A DNA stretch of 64,000 bases, taken from positions 1,608,501-1,672,500 of the forward strand of contig NZ_AP024620.1 in the NCBI RefSeq assembly GCF_023734095.1. The letters are read 5' to 3'. The position numbers were made by a program, and so were the translations under genes. Position 1 is the stretch's first letter. The number at the start of each line of letters is the position of its first letter. Below, piece after piece: positions 4,349 through 62,099 of this stretch. Below the pieces are notes generated by a model. The model ran no database searches. It saw only the letters and a list, made by a program, of their open reading frames with translations, and was not told the origin of the DNA. This DNA comes from Moorella sp. Hama-1. GTDB taxonomy: Bacteria; Bacillota; DSM-521; Neomoorellales; Neomoorellaceae.

Positions 4349-4377
4349 TTGACAGTCTGATTGCCGGCTGCTAACAT
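4349..4377 (+). promoter_or_regulatory. SigA-type promoter of the c-di-AMP-controlled potassium operon
   Basis: TTGACA at 4349-4354, a 17-base spacer and TAACAT at 4372-4377 place transcription start near 4384, just before the riboswitch aptamer. It points away from the divergent hutP-like gene. Confidence 0.7.
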
Positions 4378-4404
4378 TAACGCGAAATGCCTGTAAGACA
4401 TGAG

Positions 4405-4592
4405 AAGGCCGAATCCCGCAAATAATAGGGAACGGGGGAACCACCACAGGGGTGAATCCCTGCCCTCAGTCTACTTTATTGCTCTAGGTAATTCAGGGTA
4501 CTGGCGAGTAACGGAGCTGGCAGACTGGGGATGGGGTAGGGCTTGCTCCGGCCCGAACCCGGCAGCTAACCTCGCAGGCTGGAAGGGAGAGG
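4405..4592 (+). ncRNA. c-di-AMP riboswitch (ydaO-yuaA class)
   Basis: The conserved blocks of the ydaO-yuaA aptamer appear in order: AACGGGGGAACC, GGGGTGAATCC, then GGGTAGGGC, GGCCCGAACCCGGCAGCTAA and CCTCGCAGGCTGGAAGGG. A variable arm lies between the halves. Known members bind cyclic di-AMP and switch off potassium importers and osmolyte genes when the nucleotide is abundant. A rho-independent terminator follows within 25 bases, so control is probably by transcription termination. Confidence 0.95.
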
Positions 4593-4615
4593 AATTCATG
4601 GTGTTATTTTTGATG

Positions 4616-4655
4616 AAAACCAGCGGGGGGCCATAAGGGGGCGGCTGGTTTTTTC
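4616..4655 (+). terminator. Terminator of the c-di-AMP riboswitch
   Basis: AAACCAGC (4617-4624) pairs with GCTGGTTT (4644-4651), then a T-run and T-rich tail. It sits between the aptamer and the permease start and is the likely expression platform. Confidence 0.85.
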
Positions 4656-4702
4656 TATTCCTTTTTATCCTGGTTTTGTCTTTTGACTGGAGGAGGGTTG
4701 CA

Positions 4703-6271
4703 TTGTTGGCTGCGGCGACAGAAAAGTTAGAGTTACGCCGGGAGGTCACCGTCTGGGGCTCCTATATGTGGGGTTACGCCGATGTCGGTGCCGATATCTA
4801 CGCCGCCCTGGGCCTGGTCATGCTCTGGGCTAAAGGGGCTACCGGCCTGGCCTTCGCCCTGGCCGGGCTGGTGTATATTATGATCGGGCTGGCCTATACC
4901 GAACTGGCCGCTACCTACCCCGTGGCCGGCGGGGGGCAATTCTTTACCCTGCGCGGGCTGGGCGATTTCTGGGGCTTTGTGGCCGGATCGGCCTTATTAC
5001 TGGACTATACCATCGATATTGCCCTCTTTGCTACTGCTTCCGCCGGCTATATCAACTTCTTTTTGCCTTATCTATTTGGCATCAATGTTGATTCCCTGGC
5101 TATTAGCATCGGGCCCCTGCACCACGTCAACCTGGTCTGGATGGCCGAAGCCCTGGTCCTGGTAATCTTTCTTATCGCCCTCAATATCCGGGGGATGCGG
5201 GAATCCTCATTGCTCAACGAAATCCTGGGAGCCATTGATATCCTGACGGAATCGACCATTATTGTCTTTGGCTTCCTTTTTGCCTGGCGGCCGGAACTCC
5301 TGGCCCACCAGTGGCTCACCCAGTTCCCCACTTTTAAAGAATTTGCCTACGGTTCCTCCCTGGCCATCATCTCCTTCGTCGGCCTGGAATCCATTTCCCA
5401 GGCGGCCCAAGAAACCAAACGGCCGGCAACGGTTGTGCCCCGGACCTCTGTCGGCCTGATCTTCACCGTATTTATCTTTGCTACTGCTTTTTCCACCATG
5501 AGCCTGGGGGTCCTGCCCTGGCAGGATATTGCTGAGGCCGTCGGCGACCCGGTGGCTACCCTGGCCCATGCCATCCCCTTTATTGGCATTATTGCCGGCC
5601 CCTTTGCCGCCCTACTCGGGGCCACCATCCTGCTGATCTCGGCCAACTCCGGCGTCATGAGTGCCTCACGGCTTACCTTCGCCATGAGCCAGTTTCACTT
5701 TATCAGCGACTGGTTCAATGCCGTCCACCCGCGTTTCCGGACCCCTTACCGGACCATCCTGGTCTTTTCCGGCATCGGCGTCCTGCAGATTGTCCTTTCT
5801 TTCCTGACGCCCAACGCCATGGATACCCTGGGTAATATGTATGCCTTTGGTGCTACCACCGGCTATATCCTGGTCTTTATCGCGTTAATCAAGTTGCGTT
5901 TCACCGACCCCTATGCGCCCCGGCCCTATAAAGTGCCCTTAAACATCAAAATCAACTACCGCGGCCGGACGGTGGAGTTCCCCCTTCTGGGGGTTATCGG
6001 TACCCTGGGAATAAGCACCATTCTCTTTGAAGTCATCCTGACCCATGCCATCGGCCGTATCGCCGGCCCGGCCTGGATCCTCCTCTGTTTTATTTATTAT
6101 TTCTATTATCGTCGCAAGCATGGCTTCCCTGTCTTCGGTAATATACCCCGGGATTGGGAAAGCCAGCAACTGAAAGTCCTGGAGGCAGCCGAGGAGTACG
6201 ACCTCCTGGAGGAGTACAAACAGGCCCTGGCCGAAAGGGACCGCAGGGAGGCTGTCGCCCATGGCAGCTAA
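4703..6271 (+). CDS. APC-superfamily permease, probable KimA-like potassium importer
   Basis: A membrane transporter of about 522 residues with roughly twelve hydrophobic segments and APC-superfamily features: GADIYAALGL in the first segment, LDYTIDIALF, and FVGLESISQAAQET. The short cytosolic C-terminus is charged. By family alone it could be an amino acid permease. The c-di-AMP riboswitch and the downstream UspA and TrkA genes favour potassium uptake, as for YdaO/KimA, the founding gene of this riboswitch class. It is shorter than B. subtilis KimA (about 600), whose cytosolic domain may here be supplied by separate genes. I chose TTG at 4703 because GGAGGAGGG lies just upstream; another TTG follows at 4706. 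Confidence 0.8.
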   Translation: MLAAATEKLELRREVTVWGSYMWGYADVGADIYAALGLVMLWAKGATGLAFALAGLVYIMIGLAYTELAATYPVAGGGQFFTLRGLGDFWGFVAGSALLLDYTIDIALFATASAGYINFFLPYLFGINVDSLAISIGPLHHVNLVWMAEALVLVIFLIALNIRGMRESSLLNEILGAIDILTESTIIVFGFLFAWRPELLAHQWLTQFPTFKEFAYGSSLAIISFVGLESISQAAQETKRPATVVPRTSVGLIFTVFIFATAFSTMSLGVLPWQDIAEAVGDPVATLAHAIPFIGIIAGPFAALLGATILLISANSGVMSASRLTFAMSQFHFISDWFNAVHPRFRTPYRTILVFSGIGVLQIVLSFLTPNAMDTLGNMYAFGATTGYILVFIALIKLRFTDPYAPRPYKVPLNIKINYRGRTVEFPLLGVIGTLGISTILFEVILTHAIGRIAGPAWILLCFIYYFYYRRKHGFPVFGNIPRDWESQQLKVLEAAEEYDLLEEYKQALAERDRREAVAHGS

Positions 6272-6497
6272 AAGAAGCAGCCGGAAGGATTGCCAATCCC
6301 TCACCTGGCGTGATTACTACCAGATGGTGACCACCCTGGCCATGCTGTTCCTGGGACCGACCATCTGGGTCCGGGCCCTGGCCCATCCCAGCCCCATGGC
6401 CTGGGTAGTCGGCGCCGGTTTCCTGGGCCTCGGGATTTACCGCGCCCTGGCCTTCATCCGTTATTTCACCCGGCGCCACAAGGAGGTCCGCGCATGA
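6261..6497 (+). CDS. Small membrane protein of the potassium transport operon
   Basis: 78 residues with a basic N-terminus, two hydrophobic segments (about residues 22-40 and 46-65) and a basic tail. I do not recognise the family. It overlaps the permease by 11 bases and the next gene by 4, so it is translated as part of the operon. A small accessory subunit of the transporter is a reasonable inference, not shown by sequence. Confidence 0.7.
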   Translation: MAAKRSSRKDCQSLTWRDYYQMVTTLAMLFLGPTIWVRALAHPSPMAWVVGAGFLGLGIYRALAFIRYFTRRHKEVRA

Positions 6498-7048
6498 CGG
6501 CGATTCATACCCATCCCCTGGGTATTTTTCTGGCCCTGGTTTTTATCGTCAGTATGGGACGCCTTTTCTGGTGGATGCTGCATGTACCGCCGGCCGTTCC
6601 CTATGAAGTCGCCCATGTCACCAGGACTATCCAGGCCGTAAAACGGATCCTGGTTCCGGTGGTAGACAGCGATTATGCCCGCAGGGCCATTGAACTGGCC
6701 TGCCGTCTGGGGGCCGAGCAAAAGGCCGAGATTTTCCTGCTGGCTGTCCTGGAGGTCCCCCTGACCTCGCCCCTGGGCATAGCCCTGCCGGAAACAGAGG
6801 CTCGCTTAAACGAAGTCCTGAAGAAGGCTGCGGAAATCGTCAGCTATCATAACCTGCCCAGCAGGACCAGGATTATCCGGGCGCGGACAGCCGGTACCGG
6901 CATCCTTCAGGCCGCAGCCGAGGAAGAGGTGCAGTTGATCGTTATTGGCGTCCGGCCAAAACGCCAAATCGGTGGCCTGGGAAGCACTTCGGAATGGCTG
7001 TTGCGCCGGGCCACCTGCGAATTATTGATTGACCGGCAACCTGCATAG
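6494..7048 (+). CDS. Membrane-anchored universal stress protein (UspA domain)
   Basis: 184 residues: one hydrophobic segment near residues 8-28, then a UspA domain beginning KRILVPVVDSDYARRAIELA and ending VIGVRPKRQIGG...GSTSEWLLRRATCELLI. UspA domains are nucleotide-binding and often regulate transporters. KimA-type importers and some APC permeases carry a UspA-like cytosolic domain; here it is tethered by its own membrane helix. ATG overlaps the previous stop (ATGA), typical of coupling. Confidence 0.85.
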   Translation: MTAIHTHPLGIFLALVFIVSMGRLFWWMLHVPPAVPYEVAHVTRTIQAVKRILVPVVDSDYARRAIELACRLGAEQKAEIFLLAVLEVPLTSPLGIALPETEARLNEVLKKAAEIVSYHNLPSRTRIIRARTAGTGILQAAAEEEVQLIVIGVRPKRQIGGLGSTSEWLLRRATCELLIDRQPA

Positions 7049-7060
7049 GGGGGTATTATT

Positions 7061-7465
7061 ATGCGTGTTATAATCATCGGCTGCAGCCGGCTGGGGGCCA
7101 GCCTGGCCGTCCAGTTGGCTGCTGCCGGCCATGAGGTTAGCATCATTGATGCCAAAAGCGAGGCCCTGGAACGCCTGCCCCACGATTTCCCCGGCCAGGT
7201 CTATCAAGGGGTAGGTATTGATCTGGAACTCCTGACCCGAGTGGGGGCGGATAATGCCGATGTTCTCATCGCCGTTACCGATCGGGACAGCGCCAACCTG
7301 GTTTCAGCCCAGGTAGCCCGGGAAAAATTTCATATTCCCCGGGTCATTGCCCGGGTCTATGATCCCAAGGCTGCCAGTGCTTACCGGGCCATGGGGTTGG
7401 ATATCTTCTGTCCGACTACCCTGGGTATTGATTATGTCATGGCTCAACTGGGGGGTGCAAAATAA
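7061..7465 (+). CDS. TrkA-N (RCK) domain protein, potassium channel regulator
   Basis: 134 residues forming a single Rossmann RCK-N domain. The N-terminal GCSRLGASLAVQLAAAGHEV is a nucleotide-binding glycine-rich loop, with an acidic residue at the end of strand two (SIIDAK). It lacks the RCK-C domain present in the next gene, which overlaps it by one base. RCK proteins gate Trk/Ktr potassium uptake in response to NAD(H), ATP/ADP or c-di-AMP. The pair probably forms a heteromeric regulator of the upstream permease. Confidence 0.9.
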   Translation: MRVIIIGCSRLGASLAVQLAAAGHEVSIIDAKSEALERLPHDFPGQVYQGVGIDLELLTRVGADNADVLIAVTDRDSANLVSAQVAREKFHIPRVIARVYDPKAASAYRAMGLDIFCPTTLGIDYVMAQLGGAK

Positions 7466-8127
7466 TGTATGTTATAGTAGCCGGTGGTGGTAAGATCGGC
7501 TTTAACCTTACCAAAACCCTCCTGGACGGTGGTCAGGAAGTCCTGCTAATCGAGAAGGACCCGCGCAAATCTCGCTGGCTGGAGGACCGCCTGGGCCAGG
7601 TAGTTCTCCGGGGCGATGCCACCGAGGTGGCTACCCTGGAAGCAGCCGGGGCCAAACGGGCCGACGTAGTGGCCGCCGTAACCGGTTTTGATGAAGATAA
7701 TATCATGATCTGCCGGCTCGCCCAGAAGGTCTTCGGGGTCAACCGGGTCATCGGCCGGGTTAATAACCCCCAGAATGAAGACGCTTTTCGCCTGCTGGGC
7801 ATCAATAATATCATCAACAGCACCCTGCTTATTTATCGCCTGGTATTACAGGAAGTGGATGCTTGCGGCCTTATTCCCCTCCTGACTTTAAAGGGCGGCG
7901 AAGTAGAGTTTCTCGAAACCGTCCTGACCCCGGAATCCCCGGCCGCCCATGTGGCCGTCAAGGATCTCGTCCTGCCGGAACAGTGCCTGCTAATGGCTAT
8001 CCTGCGCCAGGAGGACCTGATCTTCCCCCGTGGCGATGTCGTTTTGTTACCCGGGGACCAGGTCATCGCTGCCGCCAGGGCGGAAGAGGTGGAAGCCCTG
8101 CGCGTGGCTCTCCTGGGAAGTGCCTAG
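7465..8127 (+). CDS. trkA: TrkA family potassium uptake regulatory protein (RCK-N plus RCK-C)
   Basis: 220 residues. RCK-N starts with MYVIVAGGGKIGFNLTKTL and includes GDATEVATLEAAGAKRADVV; RCK-C spans about residues 135-220 and ends with a typical PGDQVIAAARAEEVEAL. RCK-C domains bind c-di-AMP in some Firmicutes, which would add protein-level control to the RNA-level control upstream. No TrkH/KtrB subunit follows; a terminator does, so the APC permease is the likely partner. Confidence 0.92.
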   Translation: MYVIVAGGGKIGFNLTKTLLDGGQEVLLIEKDPRKSRWLEDRLGQVVLRGDATEVATLEAAGAKRADVVAAVTGFDEDNIMICRLAQKVFGVNRVIGRVNNPQNEDAFRLLGINNIINSTLLIYRLVLQEVDACGLIPLLTLKGGEVEFLETVLTPESPAAHVAVKDLVLPEQCLLMAILRQEDLIFPRGDVVLLPGDQVIAAARAEEVEALRVALLGSA

Positions 8128-8144
8128 AGAGTCCATAAATATTT

Positions 8145-8177
8145 AAGGGAAGGGGCGTTGGCCTCTTCCCTTTTTAA
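8145..8177 (+). terminator. Rho-independent terminator of the potassium operon
   Basis: AAGGGAAG (8145-8152) pairs with CTTCCCTT (8165-8172), followed by TTTTTAA. The remaining bases to 8303, between convergent operons, hold a weaker CCCCAGC/GCTGGGG inverted repeat and no gene that I can see. Confidence 0.85.
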
Positions 8178-24906: not shown

Positions 24907-24927
24907 ATAAATTATAAATATCCTGGT

Positions 24928-25128
24928 ACGCTGAATTACGGCTTGGGCCGTAAACGGGGGAACCATTTCCGGGGTGAATCCCGGCCAGCAGCAGCTTTTA
25001 TTTTCCTTAAATCTTTGGGTGGATAGGCTGTCATTCAGGGATTGCCGGGGAAGGGAAGGGCTGGGCGCCGGGTAGGGCTAACTTCGGCCCGAATCCGTCA
25101 GCTAACTTCGTAAGCGTGGAAGGGAACT
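24928..25128 (+). ncRNA. c-di-AMP riboswitch (ydaO-yuaA class), second copy
   Basis: Same conserved blocks as the copy at 4.4 kb: AAACGGGGGAACC, CCGGGGTGAATCCCGG, GGGTAGGGCTAA, GGCCCGAATCCGTCAGCTAA and CTTCGTAAGCGTGGAAGGGA. The variable arm between the halves is unrelated to the first copy. It precedes trehalose biosynthesis genes, so osmolyte production and potassium uptake appear to answer to the same second messenger. Confidence 0.95.
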
Positions 25129-25168
25129 ACCGGTTAACCGGTATCGTGTTCCATGGCGTTCAAGCTAG

Positions 25169-25200
25169 CAACCCCGGGTAAAACCGGGGTTGTATTTGTT
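25169..25200 (+). terminator. Terminator of the second c-di-AMP riboswitch
   Basis: CAACCCCGG (25169-25177) pairs with CCGGGGTTG (25184-25192), followed by TATTTGTTTTATT. A second hairpin, TACCGG/CCGGTA, lies just upstream and may belong to the alternative structure. Confidence 0.85.
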
Positions 25201-25261
25201 TTATTACTTTTTACGAGGAGGGCAACAATCAGCTAAAACAAAAGTAAAGGGGGTAGATAAT

Positions 25262-26719
25262 ATGAGCAAAAAGCAGGCTGCCAAAATCGTTATGGTTTCC
25301 AACCGGGGTTCGTACAACCTGCAGGCGACCCCGGAGGGCATCAAACCCGTCCCGGCCATCAGCGGCCTGGTATCCGCTGTGGAACCATTCTTACGGGAAA
25401 AGGGTGGCGTCTGGGTAGCCTGGGGCGGGCGGGAAGCACCTCAGGAAAATAGCCAGGGTTTAAGGTTGGCGGTACCTATTGATAATGCGGCTTACACCTT
25501 TCACGAAGTACCCCTCACAGCGGGAGAAATAAACCTTTACTATCACGGTTTTACCAATAGCGCCCTCTGGCCCTTGTGCCATTACTTTTTAGAAAGATGT
25601 CATTATGACGCCAGGGAATGGTCAACTTACGCCCGGGTTAACGCTAAATTTGCCGGGGCGGTTTTGGAGGAGGCCGCGGTGGGTGATATCATCTGGGTCA
25701 ATGATTACCACCTGGCCCTGGTACCGGCCCACCTACGCCATTGTCAACCGCAGTTAAAACAATTCTTTTTCTGGCATATACCCTTCCCCCACCACGACCT
25801 GCTGGCCACCCTCCCCTGGGCGCCCCACATCCTGCGCGGCCTCCTGGGAACCGATGTCCTGGGTTTCCATCTCCAGGCCTATGTTGATAATTTTTTACAG
25901 GCAGCAGCCCGGTTGCTGGGGGCCCGGGTTGACTTTGAAGAAAATATTGTCTACTGGGAACAAAGACGCATCCATGTCGGTGCCTGGCCCATGGGGATCG
26001 ATTACCGGGCCTTCCAGCGACAGGCGGTCGAACCCTCTACCAGGGCCCGAGCCCAGGAATTAAGGGAACAAATCGGCGTTGAACGCCTGGCCCTGAGCGT
26101 GGAGCGTCTTGATTATACCAAGGGGATCCTGGAAAGGCTCCTGGCCTGGGAGCGTTTGCTGGAAGAGGCCCCGGAATGGCGTGGCCGGGTGGCCCTGGTA
26201 CAGATCGCCGTACCCAGCCGGACGGCTGTACCCGCCTACCGTCGTCTAAAGGAAGAGGTGGAAGCAGCCGTAGGCCGCATCAACGGGCGTTTCAGTGACG
26301 GTAGCTATCGCCCCGTCCATTACTTCTGGCTCGGCCTCCCCCGGCAGGAGTTGGTGGCCTACTACCTGGCGGCCGATGTCATGATGGTCACGCCCCTCAG
26401 GGATGGTTTAAACCTGGTAGCCAAAGAATATGTGGCCTCACGGTGTGACAATACCGGCGTGCTGGTATTGAGTCGTTTCGCCGGTGCCTCTCAGGAGCTT
26501 AAAGGTGCCGTCCTGGTCAACCCCTACGATATCGATGGTATGGCCATGATCTTTAATACGGCCCTGGGGATGGGCCGGGCGGAACAAGAAAAAAGGTTGC
26601 GCCTTTTACAAGAAAGGGTACGGCGCCATGATGTCCACTGGTGGATGAACTGTTTCCACCAAACCATGGCCGCTAAGAAAGGAGAAGCGGATGATGTCTC
26701 CGGGTCGGCTGGCAGCTAA
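25262..26719 (+). CDS. otsA: Trehalose-6-phosphate synthase family (GT20)
   Basis: 485 residues. Joins UDP-glucose (or another nucleotide sugar) to glucose-6-phosphate. Motifs: VSNRGSYNL at the N-terminus, [13 protein letters not shown], the donor-site [13 protein letters not shown], and [16 protein letters not shown]. The N-terminus differs from the usual VSNRLPV, so a related GT20 activity such as glucosylglycerol-phosphate synthase is not excluded; the adjoining otsB favours trehalose. ATG 25262 has GGGGG upstream and is chosen over an earlier TTG near 25190, which lies in the terminator. It is the first gene after the riboswitch. Confidence 0.9.
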
Positions 26720-27443
26720 AATCCGGGGCCACCGCGAAATCCTGCTCATGTGTGACTACGACGGTACCCTGGTTCCCCTGGCCCCCCGCCCGGAACTGGC
26801 CCGTCCCGGGGAAAACCTGCTGGAATTACTGCAGTATCTGCTACGCCGGCCGGGCCTGCACCTGGTTATAATTAGCGGCCGCTCCCTGGTCGACCTCCGC
26901 CACCTGTTGCCTGTACCGGGTCTCTGGCTGGCCGGCCACCACGGCACCCGGGTCTTGGATCCTGAGGGAGAAATTAGCGACCTCTCGCCATCAATTGCCG
27001 GGGATATTCCCTGGACAAAAATTTTTTCTCTGGCCCGGAAAATAGCAGCAGGGATTCCGGGCCTTTTGGTGGAAAATAAAGGTGAAAACCTGGCCCTGCA
27101 CTACCGGTTGGCCGCGCCGGGAGACGCCGCAGCCGTCCTGGAGGAGTTTCGCCGCGAAGTCAGGCCATATTTAAAATACGGCCTCGAATTTATCGCCGGG
27201 CATAAGGTCCTGGAGATTCGCCCCCGGGGAGCCCATAAAGGGGTGGCGATAAACTATTTCACCCGCCGCTGGCCCCGGGCTTTACCCCTTTACCTGGGGG
27301 ATGATCGTACCGATGAGGATGCCTTTAACGCCCTGCCAGCTAACGGCCTGGCCGTTGGGGTGGGTCCCCGTTTCTCCGGCCGAACCCGTTATTTCCTGGC
27401 TTCACCGGCAGAAGTCAGCCATTTTCTTTTTAACCTGGCATAA
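26691..27443 (+). CDS. otsB: Trehalose-6-phosphate phosphatase
   Basis: 250 residues, HAD superfamily. The catalytic DYDGTLVPL is near residue 22, IISGRSLVDLRHLL marks motif II, and GDDRTDEDAF near residue 203 is the metal-binding motif IV. It overlaps otsA by 29 bases, with GGAG six bases before ATG, so the two are coupled. Completes trehalose synthesis from OtsA product. Confidence 0.93.
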   Translation: MMSPGRLAAKIRGHREILLMCDYDGTLVPLAPRPELARPGENLLELLQYLLRRPGLHLVIISGRSLVDLRHLLPVPGLWLAGHHGTRVLDPEGEISDLSPSIAGDIPWTKIFSLARKIAAGIPGLLVENKGENLALHYRLAAPGDAAAVLEEFRREVRPYLKYGLEFIAGHKVLEIRPRGAHKGVAINYFTRRWPRALPLYLGDDRTDEDAFNALPANGLAVGVGPRFSGRTRYFLASPAEVSHFLFNLA

Positions 27444-58915: not shown

Positions 58916-59084
58916 AGTGTACCTCTGCGTCAGAAGTACCGGCTAGCCCTTTGGTAGGTAAAAAGAACCATCGCGCCGGCAGGAAATGGCCTCCCCGCGG
59001 CGAATAATATAATATTGTAGTTCCAGGCAACAACAAATTGTTAGACCAAATCAGCCAGACTACGACTTAATAAAACTTAATATT

Positions 59085-59178
59085 TACCCCCGGGGTGCCC
59101 GTGCGGGCTGAGAAGTGCCGGATAGCACTAACCCTTGGAACCTGATCTGGGTCATACCAGCGTAGGAAAGCGGGGATA
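59085..59178 (+). ncRNA. TPP riboswitch (THI element)
   Basis: The conserved blocks CGGGGTGCCC, GGCTGAGA, ACCCTTGGAACCTGATCTGG and GTAGGAAAGCGG occur in order, as in thiamine pyrophosphate riboswitches. It precedes thiC and a terminator, so binding of TPP would stop transcription. Confidence 0.97.
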
Positions 59179-59188
59179 GAGGTTTTTT

Positions 59189-61907: not shown

Positions 61908-61972
61908 TTATATACGAACGGGAAGTATATCTGTACTACTTTGTTTCATGGGCATAGAGAAAAGCTGGCCGC

Positions 61973-62099
61973 AAACGGTGATGGAGTTCACCGGAAAACC
62001 ACCCGCAAGGGTTGATGACTCCTACCAAGGAGCAATTCCTGGTAGGAGAATGTGCAATTGTCCCAACTCCTACCAGGTAGAATCTGGAGGAGTTTTTTT
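61973..62099 (+). ncRNA. Fluoride riboswitch (crcB motif) with expression platform
   Basis: CGGTG-ATGGAGTT-CACCG is the first hairpin; its loop GGAGT pairs with ACTCC in the conserved GATGACTCCTACC. AAAACC and the ACCC/GGGT stem lie between them, as in known fluoride aptamers. CTCCTACCA occurs twice (62019-62027 and 62067-62075), and its complement TGGTAGGAG once between them (62040-62048). Without fluoride the first copy can pair with the complement, leaving the terminator (AACTCC...GGAGTT then seven T) to form. If fluoride holds the first copy in the aptamer, the complement can pair with the second copy and break the terminator. The 3' arm includes the GGAGGAG ribosome binding site. Confidence 0.95.

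Follow-up and report, generated by a model that had tools for sequence, protein, structure and literature searches.

A 64,000-nucleotide stretch of the genome of Moorella sp. Hama-1 (contig NZ_AP024620.1, positions 1,608,501 to 1,672,500), referred to below as the window, carries a five-gene operon that is a candidate potassium uptake system. The operon lies behind a cyclic di-AMP (c-di-AMP) riboswitch and encodes a permease of the APC fold, a small membrane protein, a membrane-anchored Usp-domain protein and two RCK proteins. The locus contains the following features.

4349–4377 (+): promoter-like site TTGACA-17-TAACAT with TG preceding the second hexamer (consensus match 10/12, extended −10)
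4397–4596 (+): c-di-AMP riboswitch aptamer RF00379 (83.5 bits, gathering score 38; E 6e-18; model positions 1–134, full length)
4616–4655 (+): intrinsic-terminator-like hairpin AAAACCAGC...GGCTGGTTTTTT with a T run, read from the sequence between the aptamer and the permease gene
4703–6271 (+): open reading frame of the APC-fold permease P0001, 522 residues, TTG start after GGAGG
6261–6497 (+): P0002, a 78-residue protein with two transmembrane (TM) segments and a WRDYYQ motif; the gene overlaps that of the permease by 11 nucleotides
6494–7048 (+): P0003, membrane-anchored Usp-domain protein of 184 residues; the gene overlaps that of P0002 by 4 nucleotides
7061–7465 (+): P0004, RCK_N-only protein of 134 residues (TrkA_N), TM1088A-like
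7465–8127 (+): P0005, RCK_N+RCK_C protein of 220 residues (TrkA_N and TrkA_C), TM1088B-like
8145–8172 (+): strong operon-end terminator, a 12-pair stem followed by a T run, found by the consensus scan

The five genes share one strand and overlap or are closely spaced. Together with the aptamer match, this bears out the c-di-AMP riboswitch operon described in the first-pass annotation of this DNA, which had been made from the sequence alone. Two promoter-like sites were seen against 2.4 expected from shuffling, which is not significant on its own, and the site at 4349–4377 is a plausible promoter. The hairpin at 4616–4655 was missed by the terminator consensus scan because its loop exceeds 8 nucleotides; the segment 4597–4665, which contains it, has a fold energy of −17.4 kcal/mol. 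The gene products also agree with their earlier description. The permease matches AA_permease_2 (7e-38). P0002 matches no Pfam family above cut-off and shows two TM segments by hydropathy, as expected of the small two-helix protein that had been noted. In P0003 a Usp domain (PF00582, 6.3e-21) is joined to a single N-terminal TM region, so that the Usp domain sits on its own helix and is encoded by a separate gene. The RCK-N-only protein (P0004, TrkA_N 5.6e-24) and the full RCK protein (P0005, TrkA_N 9.1e-29 and TrkA_C 3.4e-13) are likewise encoded separately.

A neighbourhood survey, suggested as a check in the first-pass annotation, found the genes conserved together. All five occur in identical order in G005, G006, G008, G009, G017, G018 and G019, which makes eight Moorellia-type genomes including that of the window. 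In G187, from another family of the same phylum, the first four genes are present and the available locus stops after the RCK_N gene. Some Usp match was obtained in 12 of 41 relatives (the window's genome included) and a close match in 8; a close permease is encoded in 7 of 398 genomes of the phylum. When each species was represented by one genome, scanning yielded 64 loci with titles naming Bacillota, Nitrospirae, Zixibacteria, Methylomirabilota, Chloroflexi, Deltaproteobacteria, Myxococcales, Armatimonadetes, Terriglobia, WOR-3 and others. After the near-duplicates L042, L043 and L076 (equal to G008, G019 and G006) had been dropped, 46 loci had a full permease followed by 2 kb or more of sequence. 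Of these, 39 have the Usp gene and 26 at least one RCK gene, with the two RCK modules together in 23. The small protein was detected in 30, a count that includes weak matches (E up to 0.01) in long frames running from stop to stop. Because the Usp profile recognises the permease-linked family specifically, it misses other Usps, such as that of L101, which was detected by Pfam. With the same profiles, a Usp or RCK gene was found within about 5 kb at 0/15 KimA-like loci and 0/20 other APC loci of the phylum, the window's own protein (L144) having been removed from the APC controls.

The arrangement of the genes varies among the loci. The RCK_N gene lies upstream of the permease gene in L088–L090, and the RCK genes are divergent in L095 and L096. 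The permease is accompanied by the Usp gene and no RCK gene in L063, L074 and L093, among others, and by neither in, for example, L068, L070, L072 and L081. These variants, taken with the recurrence counts, show that the gene set is real and that the RCK pair is not obligatory; since about half of the loci lack the pair, the permease can exist without it. Single loci showed further peculiarities. In L030/L076 (G006) the permease gene is interrupted, with residues of about 67–190 missing and an internal stop, and the other four genes look intact; this is either a pseudogene or an assembly error. The RCK gene at L029:4612-5270 (G009) shifts frame near residue 154–190. Downstream of the permease in L070 and L081, genes resembling 2-oxoacid:ferredoxin oxidoreductases lie on the opposite strand, their identity being judged by eye.

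The permease had been taken for a KimA-type importer served by Trk/Ktr-type subunits. The subunits are indeed of the Trk type and functional residues of KimA are kept in TM3, TM6 and TM10, but the permease itself is not a KimA protein by sequence. Its closest solved relative in a phmmer search is the CAT-type transporter GkApcT (4.6e-19), with KimA at 7e-4. A tree built from 55 rows separates the 29 other APCs with support of 95/92, the 12 KimA-like rows (one identical pair among them) at 100/100 and the 13 family rows (without F_L034) at 88/92; several branches are long. The PF02705 profile has no match in the window's genome. As judged from these comparisons, the permease is a lineage of its own within the APC superfamily, outside KimA and the amino acid APCs, and belongs neither to KimA/Kup nor to Trk/Ktr. 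An AlphaFold2 model of the permease (predicted local distance difference test score of 88.4, 51 alignment rows) has GkApcT (6f34, Z 39.3) and KimA (Z 37.9 for 8b71, 37.4 and 35.0) among its best structure matches. The TM part of the model ends near residue 475 and is followed by about 45 mostly helical residues. A KimA-type cytosolic domain is thus lacking from the 522-residue protein, as had been stated.

In KimA the K+ site and the proton residue comprise D36, Y43, T121, T230, Y377 and E233, and D117 lies in the tunnel (PMC6994465, PMC10284832). The acids taken as essential are D36 and E233 in KimA and D23 and E229 in Kup, beside the TM3 acid D117/E116. The substitutions D36A/N, Y43A and E233A/Q are reported to abolish uptake, and Y377A to weaken it greatly (PMC6994465). 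In the permease family D27, D105, E229 and Y380 are conserved in 57/57 rows, D101 in 56/57, D31 in 55/57 and Y33 in 54/57; these rows contain the near-duplicates L042, L043 and L076. Row L029 of alignment A5, which has a frame break and a tail that is not real protein, was kept in the profile. Column matches by MAFFT and hhalign pair E229 with KimA E233, D101 with D117, D105 with T121 and Y380 with Y377. The Y380 column holds Tyr in all 12 KimA-like rows and in only 1 of the 29 other APCs. None of these 29 has Asp in the D27 or D31 column; the latter holds Gly in 24 of them, in contrast to the Asp of the family, and the motif GADIY replaces the TM1 substrate motif G(S/T)GIF. When Kup was included, MAFFT placed D27 on the Asp of Kup GDIGTSPLY, so that the family sequence YADVGADIY pairs with Kup YGDIGTSPLY. 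Compared with one Kup sequence by hhalign, the family was not matched (probability 0.3).

The closest match of P0005 in the PDB is TM1088B (1.7e-29). For P0004, TrkA chains and TM1088A (1.4e-21) are the best or near-best matches. TM1088A and TM1088B of Thermotoga maritima form an octameric two-subunit TrkA ring, the partner of which is the TrkH protein TM1089 (PMC4380455). The adjacent RCK_N-only and RCK_N/RCK_C genes are common to both loci, but in the Moorella operon the gene alongside is that of an APC permease and TrkH is not linked. Fusions of the type TrkA_N-TrkA_N-TrkA_C in a single protein occur in L062, L082 and L094. Because of these three fusions and the TM1088A/B matches, P0004 and P0005 are best read as one two-subunit TrkA. 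The two RCK proteins of the first-pass annotation are therefore both present but count as parts of one regulator, and the idea of two independent regulators is weakened by the fusions.

TrkH is absent from many carriers of the pair. The TrkH/KtrB profile PF02386, which gives matches in B. subtilis (a species with KtrB/KtrD), was found in 9/31 RCK-pair genomes and in 2/23 of the metagenome-assembled genomes (MAGs); these 23 MAGs are without stated completeness, and MAG titles may carry binning errors. SecY is present in 21 of the 23, and 19 of those 21 are without TrkH/KtrB. A tblastn search detected no TrkH in any of the 64 loci. The genome of the window encodes a single TrkH, with an RCK gene of its own adjacent. 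With TrkH missing from 19 of the 21 SecY-positive MAGs, the RCK proteins require a different partner in most such genomes, for which the linked permease is the obvious candidate. It is probable from this distribution that the pair serves the permease in the TrkH-less MAGs. The RCK-pair genomes have further TrkA_N genes, many of them in long frames, which is suggestive of channels carrying their own RCK. An orphan RCK_N+RCK_C gene was also seen at G000:C1:2183001-2183351 (L002), near two tRNA genes, in a short locus where no K+ transporter was seen.

The position of the hairpin 3′ of the aptamer makes it a predicted expression platform that is likely to act as an OFF switch. This fits, by analogy, the OFF logic of the riboswitches in B. 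subtilis, where high c-di-AMP shuts ktrAB and kimA (PMC5573677), and in B. thuringiensis, where a c-di-AMP riboswitch terminates kdp transcription (PMC6488665). One diadenylate cyclase gene is present in the window's genome. The aptamer lies 5′ of the permease in 5/7 Moorellia-type loci examined (L029–L032 and L034). Among 61 other distinct loci searched for riboswitches (L040 being a duplicate of L047), it stands beside the permease in seven, L044–L048, L082 and L094, each of which also has the RCK pair; the titles of the aptamer-bearing loci outside the Moorellia type name Nitrospirae, Zixibacteria, Methylomirabilota, Terriglobia and Bacillota. With the riboswitch in only 7/61 distinct loci, c-di-AMP control is not general to the permease family. 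When terminators were looked for after the aptamer, L044 and L048 yielded no hairpin, and the hairpins of several other loci were poor.

Direct binding of c-di-AMP by the proteins was considered as well. The c-di-AMP signature of RCK_C, (I/L)(I/L)X2DX1RX5N(I/L)(I/L) as quoted in PMC10117811, was matched by 0/24 full RCKs and is absent from P0005, in a strict regular-expression search run without a positive control. For this reason c-di-AMP probably acts on the RNA rather than on P0005-type RCK proteins. The Usp domain of KdpD is described as a c-di-AMP receptor (PMC6488665), and by analogy one may speculate that the Usp domain of P0003 could be a receptor too. Read by eye, the Usp ATP motif GX2GX9G(S/T) is not kept in its first part in P0003, and its GS is partly kept.

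We propose, with somewhat better than even confidence and on the basis of sequence comparison, that the five genes specify a composite system for K+ uptake, repressed by c-di-AMP, with a TrkA-type ring and a detached Usp protein controlling the permease. It would work like a KimA-type K+ importer under Trk-type regulation. The APC/LeuT-fold permease would import K+, probably with H+, through a KimA-like site formed by D27 and Y33 in TM1, D101 and D105 in TM3, E229 in TM6 and Y380 in TM10. P0004 and P0005 would form a nucleotide-binding two-subunit ring of the TrkA type, with the permease as its target instead of a TrkH channel. P0003 may be a separate subunit standing in for the Usp/PPAT-like cytosolic domain that is fused in KimA, and the two-helix protein P0002 may help to hold the complex together. 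At high c-di-AMP the riboswitch would terminate the transcript, and at low K+ and c-di-AMP the operon would be made. The potassium system of the first-pass annotation is in this way supported indirectly, through the conserved KimA residues and the presence of the RCK pair in TrkH-less genomes. That interpretation holds in large part, the exception being the family to which the permease was assigned.

Several observations weigh against this proposal. The RCK pair is missing from about half of the loci, TrkH is found in 7/7 RCK-pair genomes with a known completeness of at least 90%, and the closest solved relative by sequence is GkApcT and not KimA. Two residues of the KimA site are altered, T121 to D105 and T230 to V226. 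TM1 is aligned inconsistently by the different methods. MAFFT without Kup does not place D27 on KimA D36; global hhalign is ambiguous for TM1, and local hhalign against the KimA-like rows begins after it. The structural first-residue offset is 9 in two of the three KimA entries, which puts D27 on D36 only if TM1 is ungapped, and 11 in the third.

The match to GkApcT, an Arg-binding CAT homologue that leads both the sequence and the structure comparisons, is the main argument for regarding the permease as a transporter of cationic amino acids (or another organic osmolyte) tied to osmotic or K+ status through the riboswitch and the RCK ring. Riboswitches for c-di-AMP have been reported ahead of genes for K+ transporters and for amino acid transporters alike (PMC10117811, citing Nelson 2013). 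Such a function is nevertheless unlikely, because acids (D31 column) stand in place of the Gly motif with which TM1 of APCs receives the amino acid, the KimA-type Tyr at position 380 is invariant, RCK genes are found at none of the 20 other APC loci, and the tree separates the family from the 29 amino-acid-type APCs. The conserved acids D31 and D105, which are absent from KimA and make the site more negative, would also suit another small cation such as Na+, NH4+ or a polyamine, the module then serving general osmotic or pH balance. We consider this quite unlikely, since the K+ Tyr and the proton Glu of KimA are both retained and since the riboswitch and RCK are both typical of K+ transport.

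The RCK pair might also gate a TrkH encoded elsewhere and have no more than a regulon in common with a permease for osmolytes or ions, as the partnership of the T. maritima two-subunit TrkA with TM1089 (PMC4380455) and the single TrkH found both in the window's genome and in each of the seven genomes of at least 90% completeness would suggest. This is improbable in view of the 19 SecY-positive MAGs without TrkH, one of which (L065) is mostly a single 2.1 Mb contig; in addition, the TrkH of the window's genome already has an adjacent RCK, and no TrkH lies near any of the 64 loci. A reading of the operon as no more than a KimA whose domains have become separate, and hence as already known, is very improbable. 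Fold, functional residues and riboswitch class are shared with KimA, but the family branches separately from the KimA-like rows, matches KimA only at 7e-4 and has Usp/RCK neighbours that are found at none of the 15 KimA-like loci. The tree largely refutes a KimA with split domains, which was rejected.

The proposed composite K+ importer resembles several known systems in part. It shares with KimA (YdaO), the K+/H+ symporter of the KUP family in B. subtilis, the APC/LeuT fold, functional residues in TM3, TM6 and TM10, the c-di-AMP riboswitch and a Usp/PPAT-like domain, which is a separate protein here. It differs in sequence family, in having no fused domain, in having the RCK pair, and in the replacement of T121 by D, T230 by V and S125 by F. 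GkApcT (6f34/5oqt) is the closest solved protein in sequence and fold but lacks the acids in the TM1 motif and the KimA-type Tyr in TM10, and the Usp/RCK partners are not seen at the APC control loci. RCK regulators are also found in KtrAB/KtrCD and TrkAH, and the ktrAB operon of B. subtilis carries a c-di-AMP riboswitch (PMC5573677), whereas the membrane subunit of these systems is from an unrelated family. In Streptomyces the consecutive locus tags of Vnz_27465 (KimA-like) and Vnz_27460 (an RCK_C protein) suggest that a KimA-type permease gene has an RCK gene next to it; Vnz_27465 is, however, a true KimA homologue (39%), and a single RCK_C protein is named there (PMC10117811). No description of an APC-Usp-RCK set was found in the open-licence literature, as judged by titles and abstract starts. 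The mycobacterial genes ceoB-ceoC beside Rv2690c presumably represent two TrkA-type genes next to an APC permease, divergent like those of L095 and L096.

RCK rings gate channels, TrkH/KtrB and K+/H+ antiporters. We suggest tentatively, with the balance falling just short of even, that the family constitutes a widespread unnamed class of K+ importers, in which a LeuT-fold alternating-access permease distinct from KimA and Kup is under the control of a TrkA-type RCK ring and of a membrane-anchored Usp that is detached from it; in several phyla these importers would take the place of TrkH. If this is true, K+ uptake systems of two unrelated architectures share one regulatory module, and lineages in which TrkH was not found gain a testable route of K+ uptake. 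Some proteins annotated as amino acid permeases would then be K+ importers, recognisable by a few residues and by their neighbours.

Other riboswitches were also detected in the window. A second c-di-AMP aptamer (82.7 bits), in the region 24919–27443, precedes a PF00982 glycosyltransferase-20 gene of the trehalose-phosphate-synthase type and a PF02358 trehalose-phosphatase gene, which suggests c-di-AMP control of osmolyte synthesis. An osmotic context is hinted at again at L068:6944-11044, where a family permease without Usp or RCK has a PF00982 gene of the same type in its vicinity. Thiamine pyrophosphate and fluoride riboswitches scored above their gathering scores at positions 59081–59188 and 61968–62031, respectively.

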